From positions 186,001 to 250,000 of the forward strand of contig FOBR01000004.1 in NCBI GenBank assembly GCA_900109895.1: a DNA stretch of 64,000 nt, read 5' to 3'. A program made the translations under genes and the position numbers. The notes beneath the pieces were generated by a model, which saw nothing but the letters and a program-made list of their open reading frames with translations, was not told the DNA's origin and searched no databases. Positions 22,547 through 50,936 of this stretch are shown here, in pieces (within the stretch, counting starts at the first letter, position 1; the number at the start of each line of letters is the position of its first letter). The DNA is from a bacterium A37T11. Lineage in GTDB: Bacteria; Bacteroidota; Bacteroidia; Sphingobacteriales; Sphingobacteriaceae.

Positions 22547-23701
22547 TTACTTTATGATTAGCTTTCTGCCTTCCATTTTATAGTCAATCCCTGAATTCGC
22601 CAGGAAGGTCAATAAGACGGATAGCTGTACTTTACGGCTCATTTTCCCCGAAAATAACTCATGGGGTATGGTTCCTTGGTAACTGAAATCAATATCATAC
22701 CAGCGTGCTATTTGCGGCAACATATCCTGCAATGGTGTGTCTTTAAAATAGAATATGCCGTTACGCCATGCTGTAGCGGCCATTACGTCTGCTTGCCGCT
22801 TTTTCAGGTCACCGGAAGCTGCCAGCACAGTCTCTTCACCGGGTTTCAGCTCAGCAGATAACTTTCCATTGGTGTTCACGCGTACTTTTCCGTTTACTAG
22901 CGTAGTGATTACATTTGGAGACCCCTCATACGCATTCACATTTAGCTCCGTACCCAACACATAAACCTCCTGCCCGTTAGTCCTTACCACAAATGGAACT
23001 GGGTTACCAGCTGCAGATGGCCGGTTATTCACTATGAAGTATCCTTCTCCCGTCAATTTAACCTCGCGCCTGCCTGTTTTAAAATGGGCAGGATAACTTA
23101 GGGAACTGGCTGCATTTAACCAGACTTTCGTACCATCTGGCAACACAATCTGATACTGCCCACCATTGGGGGTCGTTATTATATTATCACCTTCTTCGGC
23201 CTGTGTCATCTCATTTTTTCCAGGATGAAATACGACAGATCCATCAGCATATTTCACCACATTATGTGCGATAATTATGCCTGCCTGCTGCTGATTAAGG
23301 GCTACCTTTCTTCCGTCAGCCAGGGTGAGCACAGCCTTGTTACCCCCCGGAACGATCGAGGTTTGCAACACCTTATTTGCTCCTGGCTTTGACTTCTGCC
23401 AAGGTTGGTAAAAGTTAGCCGCCACAAGAGAGGTCGTTAGCAATACTGCTGCCGCATAATAAAACCACCTCTTAAAGAAGATTTTTTGAGGTTGACGATC
23501 TATAAATGATAGCAGCCGGCTTTCCATCTCAGCTCTTAACCGCTCTTTTCCATCCGGGCCGAGCTCCGCAAAAGCATCCACACGGCCATCGAGCAGCACA
23601 TCCCAGCTCTCCAGCAACCGGATTTCTTCAGGGGTAGCCTCCCCTGCCAGATACCGATCCAGGATCTTTTTTAACTCGTCGCGATTGTCATAAACGGCCA
23701 T
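22547..23701 (-). CDS. FecR-family anti-sigma factor
   Basis: A 384-residue protein. A cytoplasmic N-terminal part with a conserved helical anti-sigma region (residues 1-75) is followed by one membrane helix (about 82-100), the FecR domain (about 170-265, TPNGGQYQIVLPDGTKVWLNAASS) and a C-terminal DUF4974-like domain (about 310-384) that should receive the signal from the STN domain of SusC. It lies between the ECF sigma gene and the SusC gene, so the three form a sensor circuit. Its length is a useful reference for the second FecR in the window, which carries an insertion. Confidence 0.93.
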   Translation of the reverse strand: MAVYDNRDELKKILDRYLAGEATPEEIRLLESWDVLLDGRVDAFAELGPDGKERLRAEMESRLLSFIDRQPQKIFFKRWFYYAAAVLLTTSLVAANFYQPWQKSKPGANKVLQTSIVPGGNKAVLTLADGRKVALNQQQAGIIIAHNVVKYADGSVVFHPGKNEMTQAEEGDNIITTPNGGQYQIVLPDGTKVWLNAASSLSYPAHFKTGRREVKLTGEGYFIVNNRPSAAGNPVPFVVRTNGQEVYVLGTELNVNAYEGSPNVITTLVNGKVRVNTNGKLSAELKPGEETVLAASGDLKKRQADVMAATAWRNGIFYFKDTPLQDMLPQIARWYDIDFSYQGTIPHELFSGKMSRKVQLSVLLTFLANSGIDYKMEGRKLIIK

Positions 23702-23790
23702 AATTTCCTCTAGTCACAAGCGCGACTAGCACGCCCTCTTATGTATGTGACCAAAGGCTTAAAAAGTCCCAAAAAAATTTTATCTTTTTT

Positions 23791-24381
23791 TTAAGAGATC
23801 CAAGCGGTGAGCAGTGTGAGGATCATTCCGGTTAGCAGGTAGTGCATATATTTCTGCTGCAAATGGGTATAGACCGTGTTTAACTGGTTTTGGACGGTTT
23901 TTCTGGACACGCCCAGACGGGTCGCTATTTCTTCGGTAGACAGGCTTTCTTCATAGTGCAGCAGAAAAACTTTCCGTCGCTTTTCGGGCAGCGCTTCAAT
24001 CCAATGGTCCAACAACTGGCGCAGCTCCTTAGTTAACAGCTGGTCATCGGTAAAAAGTGAAGAGGCAATCGTTTCTTCAAATTCTTGGTAATATCGTGTC
24101 TCCAACGGCATTTTGGCTAAACGCTTATAGGTCATGAAACGCATAGCACTGTGCAGATAGGCCCCCAGGGTGGTTGCTTCCAGACTTTCGCGCCGTTTCC
24201 ATACATCCGTGAACAATTCTTGCACCAAGTCCTGGCATTGTTCGCGATCACGCAGCCGGTTATAGGCCGTAGCATATAACGAAGACCAGTATTGGTTATA
24301 AAGTTGGGTGAATGCGCGTTCATCTCCCCGGCGCAATGCCTGCAAAAGCTCCTGATCGTTGCCGGGTGTGAATGGTGACAT
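23791..24381 (-). CDS. ECF-type RNA polymerase sigma factor
   Basis: A 196-residue protein. Region 2 (about residues 25-95) has DLVQELFTDVWKRRESL, and region 4 (about 125-180) has a sigma-70 helix-turn-helix in LSTEEIATRLGVSRKTVQNQL. A hydrophobic C-terminal tail follows, usual for the Bacteroidota FecI-like group. It is first in the sigma-FecR-SusC-SusD-DUF3823 order. It begins 46 bp after the ABC permease-peptidase gene, so read-through from that gene is possible. Confidence 0.93.
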   Translation of the reverse strand: MSPFTPGNDQELLQALRRGDERAFTQLYNQYWSSLYATAYNRLRDREQCQDLVQELFTDVWKRRESLEATTLGAYLHSAMRFMTYKRLAKMPLETRYYQEFEETIASSLFTDDQLLTKELRQLLDHWIEALPEKRRKVFLLHYEESLSTEEIATRLGVSRKTVQNQLNTVYTHLQQKYMHYLLTGMILTLLTAWIS

Positions 24382-47546: not shown

Positions 47547-48830
47547 TTAGGGTTTTACGAAGATCTGCCTCCCTTCTATGTTAAAGTGTACACCTCCGGT
47601 TAATGCTAATTTGCGCAGCACCTGGCTTACGTTTGCATAGCGGGACACGTTGCCACCGAAACGCTTGCTTTTATCGGCGCCCTGGTATATAATGTCTACG
47701 TTATACCAGCGCGCTATTTTCTTCATAATGGTCTCGAGTGGTTCGTTGTTGAAGCTGATGAGGCCATTGCGCCAAGCGAGCTCGTTGTTTACGTCCACAT
47801 GGGCTTTGGATATTTTTCCGTCCTTTTGGATCAATGATTGTTCTCCGGGGACGAGCTTTAGGGCATAAGGGCCTATCTCACTGGCTACATTACTTGCAAC
47901 CTTTATGGCTCCCGAAATTAACGTTGTCCTTGCAGTCAGTTCTTCCGCGTAGGCCGTGACATTGAAACTCGTGCCCAAGACTAAAATTTCTTGGTTTTTG
48001 CTTTTAACGATGAAGGGTCCGCACGACACGCGCGAACCAGCGGATGCTTTATTGTTAACCTCAAAATATCCTTCTCCTTCCAAAAACACTTCTCTCTTAT
48101 CACCGGTAAATTTGCTGGGGTACTTTAACGTACTGGCTGCATTGAGCCAAACTTTGGTGCCGTCGGATAAGATGATTTGGTATTGACCCCCTTTAGGGGT
48201 ACTAAGCGCTAATAGAACGTCACCCTGAGCGGATCCCGATATATCGGGAGGAGTCGAACGGGTCTCTGCCCCATTCTTCCCGGCAGGCAGAGATCCTTCG
48301 GCTCCCCCTTTCTCTTTCCCACCCTCCCCGCTCAGGATGACGCCCGGGAGCGATGCACCGCTTTGGTATTTTATATGCTCATTTCCAATTATAATCCCGC
48401 TTTGCGCGGAGTCTAACGTTATTTTTGTGCCGTCGGCTAAGGTGAGGGTGGCTTGGTTGTAGCCCGGGGGAATGTCAACGGTGCTTTTGTTGATATAAAA
48501 ATATAGGCTAATGCTTAGCATAACGAGTACTGCGGCGGCGGCTATGGAAAGCGGCTTTTTCCAGTGGGGTCGGCGGACGGAAATGGTATGGGCTGGCTGC
48601 GTGAGTTGCCGGATATAGCCGTCGGTCTGGGCGGTGATCTGGTCAATGCGTTGGGTGGTAGCCTCGTCAAAGGTTTCTGGTGCTGCCAGGTAGGTTTCAA
48701 TTTTCTGTTTTAACGCGCTGCTGTCTGTTGCCTCATCGAAGTAAGCCAGCAGCTCCCCGAGCTCGTCAGGGCTGTAGGCCCCTTCGAGGTATTGCTGAAA
48801 GCGTTGCAGGCGTTCTTCGTGTGTGTCCAT
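47547..48830 (-). CDS. FecR-family anti-sigma factor with a 41-codon insertion
   Basis: A 427-residue protein. N-terminal anti-sigma region (1-95), one membrane helix (about 96-112), the FecR domain (STPKGGQYQIILSDGTKVWL and onward, about 210-300) and a C-terminal DUF4974-like domain (about 345-427, IARWYNVDIIYQG). Between the transmembrane stretch and the FecR core lies an extra segment (about 165-205, GVILSGEGGKEKGGAEG and beyond) that is rich in Gly, Ser and Glu. It is the translation of a repeat element at 48219-48341. Without it the length (386) is nearly that of the other FecR (384). Confidence 0.92.
   Translation of the reverse strand: MDTHEERLQRFQQYLEGAYSPDELGELLAYFDEATDSSALKQKIETYLAAPETFDEATTQRIDQITAQTDGYIRQLTQPAHTISVRRPHWKKPLSIAAAAVLVMLSISLYFYINKSTVDIPPGYNQATLTLADGTKITLDSAQSGIIIGNEHIKYQSGASLPGVILSGEGGKEKGGAEGSLPAGKNGAETRSTPPDISGSAQGDVLLALSTPKGGQYQIILSDGTKVWLNAASTLKYPSKFTGDKREVFLEGEGYFEVNNKASAGSRVSCGPFIVKSKNQEILVLGTSFNVTAYAEELTARTTLISGAIKVASNVASEIGPYALKLVPGEQSLIQKDGKISKAHVDVNNELAWRNGLISFNNEPLETIMKKIARWYNVDIIYQGADKSKRFGGNVSRYANVSQVLRKLALTGGVHFNIEGRQIFVKP
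48219..48341 (-). repeat. 123-bp inverted-repeat (MITE-like) element inside the fecR gene
   Basis: Ends are GTCACCCTGAGCGG (48219-48232) and the near-exact complement of GTCATCCTGAGCGG (48328-48341). Inner arms are also complementary (GGAGTCGAA/TTCGGCTCC and CTCTGCC/GGCAGAG), plus a perfect TCCCGATA palindrome at 48234-48249. Its length is 41 codons and it has no stop in the fecR frame. No obvious target-site duplication is visible. Confidence 0.8.
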
Positions 48831-48939
48831 TTTCCTCTGTGGTATGTCCGTTTATAGATAGTACGCTCGAACACGAAAAAGTACCACAGGGAAAATGAAA
48901 TTTTTTTAGGATTTTCGTACACACTTCAGAAAGATGTTT

Positions 48940-48963
48940 AATTGCTATATGTATATAGCAATT
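48940..48963. repeat. palindrome AATTGCTATAT-type, left 1
   Basis: Perfect 11-bp arms (AATTGCTATAT) around a 2-base centre. It belongs to a set of similar palindromes that flank the AAA-DUF4143 gene. Confidence 0.85.
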
Positions 48964-48971
48964 TACCCGTA

Positions 48972-48997
48972 AAAATGCTATATAAATATAGCATTTT
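48972..48997. repeat. palindrome AAAATGCTATAT-type, left 2
   Basis: Perfect 12-bp arms (AAAATGCTATAT) around AA, 8 bp from the previous palindrome. It lies 78 bp beyond the 3' end of the ATPase gene. Confidence 0.85.
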
Positions 48998-49075
48998 ACT
49001 CCTGGATTATATAGATAAAGCCAAATTGAATACTTTCCCTACGCTTAAACTAATATAAGAATTACTATTATTTTT

Positions 49076-50272
49076 TTAGTACAAGAATCCAAATAACCAT
49101 AGCGGGATCTTATTGCCCACGCCGGCTTCCAGTTCGTCAGCTGCGACAAATGAGTTGGGTATGCCGGCTATCTGCTTGTAGCCTTTTTGGCGACCACCAA
49201 CTTCAAAAATAAATTGTTTGTCTACCTCAAAATCGCCCTTTATGGGCAGTGATAAGTGATGCCCGGCATTAATGAGCTGCCCGGCAAAAAACGATTCACG
49301 AATACTGCCCTTGTCTGGGTTTACCATGGCTAATGCTTCAAATAGGTTGGCATTTTCCAGCAGTACTTTCCCGGGCTTTTCCAGCTTACCATAGCCTTTG
49401 CCCGATTGATAAAGATTATTGATGAGACGGGCTTTATCCAGATAATGCAGGTATTCAATGAGGGTGTTTCTGCCCATAGACAACTTTTTGCTTAGATCTG
49501 AGATATTGGGGGTAAAAGGTACGTTTTCTGCCAGGATGGCCATCAGTTCCAATATTTTCCGGATATTCTGGTAGTCGATGTGCTCTACAAAGGCCAGGTC
49601 ATACTCAATCACTAGTTTCACCACCTGCTCTAACCGGCTTGGATAGGTGTTGATGTTCTCTTTAAAAAATGGATAGTAGCCATAGGCCAGGTATTCATTA
49701 AAATACTTGAGCGGAGTAATGTCTTTTATGACAGTTTGTACCAGTTTTTCATGGTTTTTAAGCAAATCGCCCAAGGCGATTATTTCATATCGGATGCCTT
49801 TCGCATATTGCAAGAACTCCCGGAATGATAGGCCGGATAAGTGATAAATAATGGCTCGCCGGCTTAGATCAACAGGAAGCTTTAACATGTCAATGATGGA
49901 TGAGCCGGTAAAGAAGAGAGTAATTTCCCGCTTAAAATCATAGATGTTCTTAATCTCCCGGTGCCAGTCCGGATATTTATGCACTTCGTCCAAAAACAGG
50001 TATCTGCCGCCGTTAATCCGAAAAGTTTCGGCTACATCGATGAGGCTGTTTCGTGTAAAGTAGATATCATCCAAAGAAACATACAATGCTTCTGACCCGG
50101 AAAGCCCCATTTCCTTGATACGCTGCAGTAATATCGTGGTTTTCCCCGCCCCACGAGGGCCCATCAGACCAATGAGACGATTGCTCCAATCAATCTCTTC
50201 ATACAGCGTCCGCTTAAAATCAAGCGATTGTTCTGCGACGAGTTTGTTTGATTTTAGAATGAGTTCCTCCAT
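49076..50272 (-). CDS. AAA-family ATPase with C-terminal DUF4143 domain
   Basis: A 398-residue protein. An AAA_14-type P-loop core is in the first third: Walker A GPRGAGKTTILL at about residue 37, Walker B GGRYLFLDEVHKYPDWHRE at about 88, sensor FFTGSSI at about 120. The C-terminal part (about 200-398) is DUF4143, with an HTH-like DLSKKLSMGRNTLIEYL and FEVGGRQKGYKQI near the end. The family is widespread in Bacteroidota and uncharacterised; some members sit in defence or mobile contexts. Here it splits the fecR-sigma pair and is bounded by AATTGCTAT palindromes. Confidence 0.9.
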   Translation of the reverse strand: MEELILKSNKLVAEQSLDFKRTLYEEIDWSNRLIGLMGPRGAGKTTILLQRIKEMGLSGSEALYVSLDDIYFTRNSLIDVAETFRINGGRYLFLDEVHKYPDWHREIKNIYDFKREITLFFTGSSIIDMLKLPVDLSRRAIIYHLSGLSFREFLQYAKGIRYEIIALGDLLKNHEKLVQTVIKDITPLKYFNEYLAYGYYPFFKENINTYPSRLEQVVKLVIEYDLAFVEHIDYQNIRKILELMAILAENVPFTPNISDLSKKLSMGRNTLIEYLHYLDKARLINNLYQSGKGYGKLEKPGKVLLENANLFEALAMVNPDKGSIRESFFAGQLINAGHHLSLPIKGDFEVDKQFIFEVGGRQKGYKQIAGIPNSFVAADELEAGVGNKIPLWLFGFLY

Positions 50273-50276
50273 ATTG

Positions 50277-50310
50277 AATTGCTAAAATGCTCTGCAAATA
50301 TAGCATATTT
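50277..50310. repeat. imperfect TTGCTA/TAGCA palindrome at the ATPase start
   Basis: AATTGCTA and TATAGCA arms with a long spacer that also contains ATGCT. It begins 5 bp upstream of the ATPase start codon, a position that would suit autoregulation. Confidence 0.6.
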
Positions 50311-50317
50311 ATCACAA

Positions 50318-50341
50318 AATTGCTATTTGAATATAGCAATT
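50318..50341. repeat. palindrome AATTGCTAT-type, right, overlapping the sigma stop codon
   Basis: 9-bp arms (AATTGCTAT/ATAGCAATT) around 6 bases. The right arm overlaps the first two bases of the sigma gene's stop codon at 50340-50342, so the flanking repeat reaches exactly to the end of that gene. Confidence 0.8.
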
Positions 50342-50936
50342 AGGTAGCAATCAACGATGCTGATAGCAGGGCCAGCAGAATAAGCAAGCCCGGATTAAGG
50401 AGCTTGATTAAGGTTTGGGTGGCGCGGTACACGTGATTGTTAATGGCGGAGGGGCTAATACCGAGCTCCTCGCTGATCTCTTTGTAGCTTTTACCTTCCA
50501 GCTTGTGCTTCACAAACACTTCGCGTTGCCGGGGCGGAAGTTGCTGTAGGGCTTGCTGCACGATGGCGATGTTTTCTTTGCTTACCAAAGTTTCTTCAAT
50601 GTGGCTGTAATCGATCTGTGCGCCCAACAACAGATGCTCCCGCAGCTGCTCATCACGGCCAGCCCTGCGGTAAAGGTCAGTGACGAGGTTTTGGGCCATT
50701 TTATAGAGCAGGGCACCAAAAGCCTGCTCCGGGTTGATCTGCTCACGCATTTCCCATATTTTGGTGAACAGGTCCTGCAGGGCGTCTTGCGCCAGCTCAT
50801 CTGACTTGAGTAATCGAAGAAATTTTCCGGTAAGGGGCTTTTTATAATGGTGGTATAGTGCTTCGAAGGCCCGGTGGTCTCCGTTTTTGAGCTGGGCTAA
50901 CCAAACTTTCTCGTTTTCTGAACGGATAAGTTCCAT
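50340..50936 (-). CDS. ECF-type RNA polymerase sigma factor (module 2)
   Basis: A 198-residue protein. Region 2 (about residues 25-95) contains LAQDALQDLFTKIWEMREQI, region 4 (about 125-180) contains the HTH segment LEGKSYKEISEELGISPSAI. A hydrophobic C-terminal tail (LLNPGLLILLALLSASLIAT) follows. It should be controlled by the FecR of module 2 although the two genes are now separated by the ATPase gene. A predicted promoter lies just upstream. Confidence 0.92.
   Translation of the reverse strand: MELIRSENEKVWLAQLKNGDHRAFEALYHHYKKPLTGKFLRLLKSDELAQDALQDLFTKIWEMREQINPEQAFGALLYKMAQNLVTDLYRRAGRDEQLREHLLLGAQIDYSHIEETLVSKENIAIVQQALQQLPPRQREVFVKHKLEGKSYKEISEELGISPSAINNHVYRATQTLIKLLNPGLLILLALLSASLIAT

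Follow-up and report, generated by a model that had tools for sequence, protein, structure and literature searches.

An AAA_14-type ATPase gene with tandem palindromes in its promoter, probably a self-repressing mobile unit of a single gene

We analyzed a stretch of 64,000 nucleotides (nt) from the Sphingobacteriaceae bacterium A37T11 (GenBank assembly GCA_900109895.1, contig FOBR01000004.1, positions 186,001 to 250,000), hereafter called the window, in which a gene for an AAA_14-type ATPase is bracketed by palindromes and stands between two regulatory genes. All three genes lie on the minus strand and were identified from the list of open reading frames (ORFs) and by Pfam: the ATPase gene (49076-50272, 398 amino acids), its upstream neighbor, which encodes an extracytoplasmic function (ECF) sigma factor (50340-50936, 198 amino acids), and its downstream neighbor, a fecR anti-sigma gene (47547-48830, 427 amino acids). 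Gene calls and Pfam agree in placing the ATPase gene between sigma and fecR, as the original prediction, made from the sequence alone, had proposed. A second sigma-fecR pair, said there to be adjacent at 22547-24381, is indeed so, its ORFs (23791-24381 and 22547-23701) being only 89 base pairs (bp) apart. An ATPase gene between sigma and anti-sigma genes may change the output of that Sus-type locus. The absence of a transposase, also claimed originally, holds for the products scanned by Pfam, namely the sigma factor, FecR, the SusC-like protein and the GH76 protein, the scan having been confined to these parts of the window. In addition, an inverted repeat, CATTTTCCTCTGTGGTA ... TACCACAGGGAAAATG, lies at the start of fecR (48829-48897) and possibly forms a leader hairpin.

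The ATPase gene has a pair of palindromes on either side. Upstream, in the direction of transcription, the proximal palindrome, AAAATGCTCTGCAAATATAGCATATT, occupies positions 50284-50309, as judged from the sequence and the flanks of homologues, and its center holds TATATTTG, a -7-type box on the coding strand 30 bp 5' of the ATG; TAnnTTTG is the -7 box of Bacteroidota. The distal palindrome, AAATTGCTATTTGAATATAGCAATTA (50317-50342), overlaps the stop codon of the sigma gene (50340-50342). On the other side, an inner, near-perfect palindrome (48972-48997) belongs to an inverted copy of the upstream arrangement, of which the outer palindrome is TAATTGCTATATGTATATAGCAATTT (48939-48964). The start-to-start distance is 33 bp in both pairs, and the two pairs together form one 60-nt inverted repeat that is 77% complementary, the upstream pair being less perfect than the nearly perfect downstream one. 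We thus confirmed that near-identical palindromes flank the gene and that the outer one on the right covers the sigma stop codon, with the correction that the right side, too, has two. Allowing up to three mismatches, TGCTATNNNNATATAGCA had 23 matches in the window, as compared with 7.8 +/- 2.6 in 100 shuffled sequences, none of which reached 23, and in the 5.1-Mb genome the core pattern with at most one mismatch occurred solely at these four places.

The domain content of the protein was compatible with part of its original assignment to the AAA_14/DUF4143 type. Residues 31-154 form an AAA_14 domain (96.9 bits against a Pfam cut-off of 27, E = 1.2e-27), whereas the DUF4143 match, at residues 231-339, scored 25.3 bits and fell below the cut-off of 28.1, suggesting that the protein is at most a divergent DUF4143 member. 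The AlphaFold2 model (mean predicted local distance difference test score, 91.9) contains a winged helix-turn-helix made up of helices at 257-264 and 268-280 and a strand at 284-287. Near the C-terminus, E326, D347, E357 and K363 were invariant in both alignments examined (34 and 51 proteins), and we presume catalytic roles among them on the basis of the PD-(D/E)XK motif. In Foldseek, the nearest solved folds were the AAA+ motors and initiators RuvB, DnaA and ORC (best E = 1.9e-7), proteins that pair AAA+ with DNA-binding domains; unlike a close structural relationship, however, this fold similarity came with low template-modeling scores of about 0.2-0.35 on the query, and no nuclease fold was present among the matches listed. 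The best PADLOC profile was PDC-S01 (E = 5.4e-27), with five PDC-S01 profiles at E <= 2.5e-5 and a sixth at 5.6e-5, as judged by E-value and not by PADLOC's own thresholds, so that the protein resembles this candidate defense family. According to PMC12988326, PDC-S01 joins an ATPase domain to a PD-(D/E)XK superfamily member, is the fourth most common defense across prokaryotes and has been transferred across domains, while validation is pending for most PDC candidates; PMC13356809 describes it as abundant in rumen genomes. By analogy with this literature, the C-terminal region would be nuclease-like.

Homologues of the ATPase gene are patchily distributed. Matches at E <= 1e-20 were found in 81 of 399 genomes of the family, that of A37T11 included, and several genomes had as many as four matches listed, fragments included; copy numbers are lower bounds, about four candidates having been scored per genome. 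A scan of wider genomes gave at least 578 relatives, of which the best 80 were analyzed. Among the matches listed, most relatives were in Bacteroidota and some in Lentisphaeria, Treponema, Spirochaetaceae, Fibrobacter and Chlorobiota, all of the latter in metagenome-assembled genomes (MAGs). Relatives were few on plasmids (24 in 72,556 records at E <= 1e-30) and on viral contigs (four). The resulting sample comprised 170 loci, that is, 169 homologues plus the focal locus, with 90 from family genomes (focal included) and 80 from the wider scan; loci are designated below by L numbers, the focal one being L001.

We searched these 170 loci for neighboring relatives of sigma, fecR, susC and GH76 genes. 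Within flanks of up to about 4 kb, a sigma relative was near the ATPase gene in seven and a fecR relative in nine, and an association with sigma/FecR as a rule was rejected. By blast with the sigma factor and FecR of the window, the focal locus was the only one with the ATPase gene directly between the two genes; L094 has a sigma gene on one side of the ATPase gene and part of a fecR gene on the other, both over 2 kb away and oppositely oriented. The position is thus not a stable one, being found at one of 170 loci, and the palindromes, whose absence from relatives had been named as grounds for abandoning the original prediction, do occur at related genes. In the genome of A37T11 itself, L004:2969-3043 (contig C15) encodes a 25-residue C-terminal remnant of a second family ATPase, 68% identical, located directly upstream of another ECF sigma-fecR pair, a single anecdotal case. 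The same genome encodes a distant second ATPase of this kind at L005:1906-3075 (contig C10), with 31% identity over 122 residues.

Many of the relatives have tandem palindromes that cover the promoter immediately upstream of the ATG. The 167 loci with enough upstream DNA included 132 that could be anchored on a -7-type box, and in 104 of these, with spacing left flexible, the palindromes scored above the 95th percentile of shuffled flanks. Spacing in the 104 was 33 bp in 52 loci, 32 bp in 45, 31 bp in four and 34 bp in three. No more than 60 bp separated TAnnTTTG from the ATG at 83 of 90 loci of one set and 54 of 77 of another, and in 69 aligned loci complementary bases co-varied around two centers, +14.5 and -18.5 from the -7 box, which are 33 bp apart. 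The half-sites vary between subgroups (TTGCTAT, TTGTTTA, TTGCACA, TTGACTTG, CGTATCG and others), mostly as TTG plus five bases, and the consensus half-site starts with TTG in 86 of 102 loci with intact proteins. These counts supersede an earlier ungapped palindrome score, which was too blunt (P <= 0.05 at 48 of 90 loci upstream and 16 of 90 downstream); operator extraction with fixed spacing had retained just 62 of 127 proteins. Of the two readings first offered for the palindromes, the operator is the one borne out, as they are conserved before the ATG and rare downstream, and they most likely represent an operator bound by the ATPase's own protein. By eye, two further arrangements were seen: in L031, the nearest homologue, two palindromes in the 140 bp preceding the ATG are fused to a perfect hairpin of 22 bp that has a loop of 7 nt, and in L149, from a Tannerella MAG, an array of about nine tandem operator-like palindromes lies about 330 bp before the ATG.

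The protein region that best follows the operator is the predicted recognition helix. In pairs of 102 proteins, with overall protein distance removed, the 10 columns that best tracked the variable operator bases were 269, 329, 271, 262, 67, 84, 318, 272, 331 and 265, five of which fall within residues 262-272. The stretch 259-272, noticed first and tested afterwards, came out on top among 385 windows, and its value was matched by 0 of 200 pseudo-operators drawn from neighboring DNA. In the AlphaFold2 model, R268, invariant in both alignments, and N269 are at the start of the helix. The base following TTG was C in 43 of 55 proteins with N269, as compared with nine of 47 with another residue (P = 3e-9), and this link persisted on clustering at 80% and 70% identity (P = 8e-7 and 1e-4); at 70%, N269 was the best of 903 residue tests, but a full Bonferroni correction removed its significance. 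N269 and TGCT half-sites, in agreement with the rule, are also seen (by eye) in the focal gene and L031-L033, none of which belonged to the covariation set; being close relatives, these four count as about one test. The link between helix and operator is strong in level and moderate once relatedness is strictly removed.

These results also bear on whether another regulator, for example a host repressor, binds the operators in place of the ATPase. Separate repressors with repeated promoter sites are known, such as RptR, whose defense island, according to PMC12255303, has repeated promoter sites with a palindromic core at a defense locus, much as here; RptR, however, is a separate small repressor, whereas in the present case regulation would fall to the effector-like ATPase. 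As the half-sites differ among subgroups and co-vary with the recognition helix of the ATPase above any other protein window, we consider another regulator rather improbable and judge it most likely, from the sequence comparisons, that the protein represses its own gene.

Downstream of the gene, palindromes are exceptional. Cognate palindromes within 1 kb downstream exceeded the nulls at four of 90 loci and were clear only at the focal locus and L089, so that the check proposed originally, for flanking palindromes at related genes, found them upstream and seldom downstream. When the whole two-palindrome arm was sought in 167 loci (six of which had less than 500 bp of downstream DNA), L191 and the focal locus stood out, followed by L089 and L161; weak minus-strand matches at L141, L184, L035 and L149 were one or two above the best of 12 shuffles. 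A clear inverted arm was present at the focal locus only, and the palindromes were accordingly rejected as transposon ends. Two of these loci have structures of their own: L191, from a Bacteroidales MAG, carries a tandem second ATPase copy with its 715-bp upstream stretch, 93% identical, and in L089 the ATPase gene is flanked by two copies of one gene, presumably Fic-like, one shortened and the other longer, with operator-like CGTATCG...CGATACG palindromes beside those copies too.

If the palindromes marked the ends of a small transposable unit as its terminal inverted repeats, at which its own product cuts, this would account for the 60-nt inverted repeat bounding the focal gene, one end of which abuts the sigma stop codon, and would suit the description of the family, in PMC12988326, as an ATPase with a PD-(D/E)XK-type domain. 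The inverted arm, however, is clear at just one of 167 loci, the flanking repeats described below are long and variable, and the inserts in L109 and L080, the two loci whose empty sites matched on both sides, run from 141 and 143 bp before the ATG to 75 and 86 bp after the stop codon, respectively, with the operators internal; we regard this explanation as very improbable. As for the focal downstream pair, it may have been left by a second, inverted copy, may anchor a loop or may have been inherited by chance. The near-perfect palindromes, their equal 33-bp spacing and their end 108 bp ahead of the fecR start would allow the protein to loop DNA or to control fecR as well. This proposal seems doubtful to us, since no TAnnTTTG box was seen by eye beside the downstream palindromes in either direction, the clear inverted arm is peculiar to the focal locus, and a relic of a second inverted copy is equally possible, extra operator arms being present at L128, L161 and L191.

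Relatives of the gene appear, from their flanking sequences, to move between genomes as a one-gene unit. We sought direct repeats shared by the 400 bp upstream of the ATG and the 300 bp that follow the stop codon in 156 loci, obtained after removing seven repeated records and loci with too-short flanks. Repeats were found in 25, and with the focal locus set aside, where the repeat consists of its own operators, they flanked the gene at 24 of 155 loci, as compared with one of 204 control ORFs (at least about 200 amino acids, taken from these loci by mechanical calls and not curated genes; Fisher test, 9e-9). The repeat was a single matching stretch in 12 of the 24 (L034, L053, L056, L095, L109, L125, L130, L152, L177, L187, L193 and L195) and had one main pair in four more (L121, L126, L161 and L171), while the remainder included tandem, dispersed or array repeats. 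In 20 repeats examined, the edge on the 5' side kept a distance of 77 bp or more from the ATG and lay beyond the operator pair. Since the edges of the unit are outside the operators, the palindromes are not the ends of the moving unit; of the mobile cassette proposed originally, the mobility is upheld for the gene family by flanking repeats and an empty site, and the palindromes as its ends are not. The flanking repeat of L161 itself contains further operator-like palindromes. In L110, outside the 24, the ATPase gene lies within a long repeated array, pieces of which recur often across the genomes of its genus and parts of which are shared by L106 and L107.

A precise empty site was found for L109. 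In L215, which is 89% identical and has no ATPase gene there, the match on the left extends to 142 bp from the ATG of L109 and that on the right resumes 75 bp past the stop codon, the two overlapping by 143 bp. The inserted unit is thus about 1,407 bp long and consists of operators, gene and a short tail. L217 gave the same 143-bp duplication, and L216 had a short and weak right match. For L095, L209-L213 hold a single copy of the 233-bp repeat, the left flank not being in common; no usable empty alleles were found for L034 and L056. By eye, the insertion in L080 separates the arms of what looks like a terminator hairpin, and comparison with L223 showed 59 bp replaced, with the left match ending earlier. 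In L201-L204, a fecR relative follows sigma without the ATPase gene, which fits insertion and gives no edges. At the focal locus, the inserted unit would span 48939-50342 (minus strand) and include operators, gene and downstream inverted pair, with edges that are inferred, not proven.

Such repeats could also arise if the gene moved passively, its flanks recombining by host homologous recombination once DNA fragments had been transferred, in which case the two copies would be diverged alleles of donor and recipient. In line with this, the copies at the 24 loci are 81-97% identical (exception L191, 74%) and not identical, the differences between the L193 copies are nearly all synonymous (by eye), and at some loci just one of the copies falls in a long open frame, the frame of its partner being short; among 15 loci examined, one copy lay in an open frame and reached its end in L109 (265 codons), L193 (447), L034 (369) and L161 (194). 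In L109, by contrast, a whole unit with one 143-bp duplication, its copies 97% identical, fits simple insertion; insertion without duplication occurs too (L080), and passive movement leaves the initial choice of a new site unexplained. We regard passive movement as a serious possibility, if somewhat short of probable. In a more active version, the ATPase-nuclease would move its own gene by reading the operator array, making staggered cuts or exchanging strands to give the long duplications, and limiting itself by binding the array, with helix and operator changing together in each lineage so that copies avoid silencing one another; this seems unlikely.

With the operator architecture, helix covariation, patchiness, flanking repeats and one precise empty site with its duplication computed here, we think it probable that the gene is a one-gene, horizontally moving unit encoding its own repressor. 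The recognition helix of the winged helix (R268, N269, L271 and I272) would bind the tandem palindromes in its own promoter, one of which would cover the -7 box and transcription start and the other, farther upstream by three helical turns or about 33 bp, the -33 region. Binding would hold expression low until a signal, perhaps invading DNA or loss of a gene copy, upon which the released ATPase and its C-terminal nuclease-like domain would act on DNA. Most plausibly, by analogy, the ATPase acts as a defense or selfish-maintenance enzyme, as proposed for PDC-S01. Across the family, operators and gene would have been inserted together, by whatever agent may drive insertion, into intergenic DNA or the ends of genes, and long direct target duplications would often have resulted.

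Several observations weigh against a self-repressing mobile unit. Of the 132 anchored loci, 28 fail the operator score, among them the focal gene, L031 and L032, which reach 25, 26 and 22, respectively, where 27 is required; L033 is one of the 35 loci, out of 167 with enough upstream DNA, that lack a -7 anchor. The miss of the focal gene slightly lowers our confidence in self-repression and slightly raises that in another regulator. Moreover, the inner palindrome is centered on the -7 box in the group of the focal gene and L031-L033 and begins at the box elsewhere, and the general operator geometry therefore differs from the focal one. The palindromes of this group are evident by eye, and the focal ones also by the complementarity and shuffle tests. 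The N269-C link weakens to P = 0.011 with clustering at 60% and 0.19 at 50%, and on a tree built without residues 250-290 (the helix-turn-helix columns) only four of 16 base changes shared a branch with a residue change, all four concordantly (P = 0.016). As to mobility, dispersed or array repeats account for some of the flanking repeats (L139 and L108, and also L110, outside the 24); at L080, whose empty site is clear, the unit, from -143 to +86, has no duplication, and 38 bp of the empty allele (L221 and L222) are replaced. At the focal locus, no direct duplication was found, the operators being the only repeat there, nor was an empty site at that position, the nearest sigma relatives being 46-55% identical.

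Restriction-modification genes are reported in PMC3031569 (citing Nobusato et al. 2000 and its reference 13) to insert with long, variable target duplication. The ATPase genes resemble them in variable-length direct duplications, a one-copy empty allele, patchiness and a tandem copy (PMC3031569), but differ in that the unit is a single gene, with no methyltransferase seen, and carries inside it operators that are probably bound by its own product. The descriptions of PDC-S01, to which the focal protein has profile likeness, are silent, in the excerpts available, on autoregulation, operators and insertion mode (PMC12988326, PMC13356809), and no report of such an operator or insertion mode was found in the DUF4143/PDC-S01 literature covered, which took in few subscription papers and lay outside bioRxiv preprints. 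PDC-S01 is a common, little-tested candidate for phage defense, and its control and spread are thus of interest. The predicted operator, together with the rule that pairs R268 with TTG and N269 with C, would offer an immediate handle on self-repression, and the insertion signature connects these ATPases with an unsolved problem, the mechanism by which restriction-modification genes come to be inserted with such duplications.
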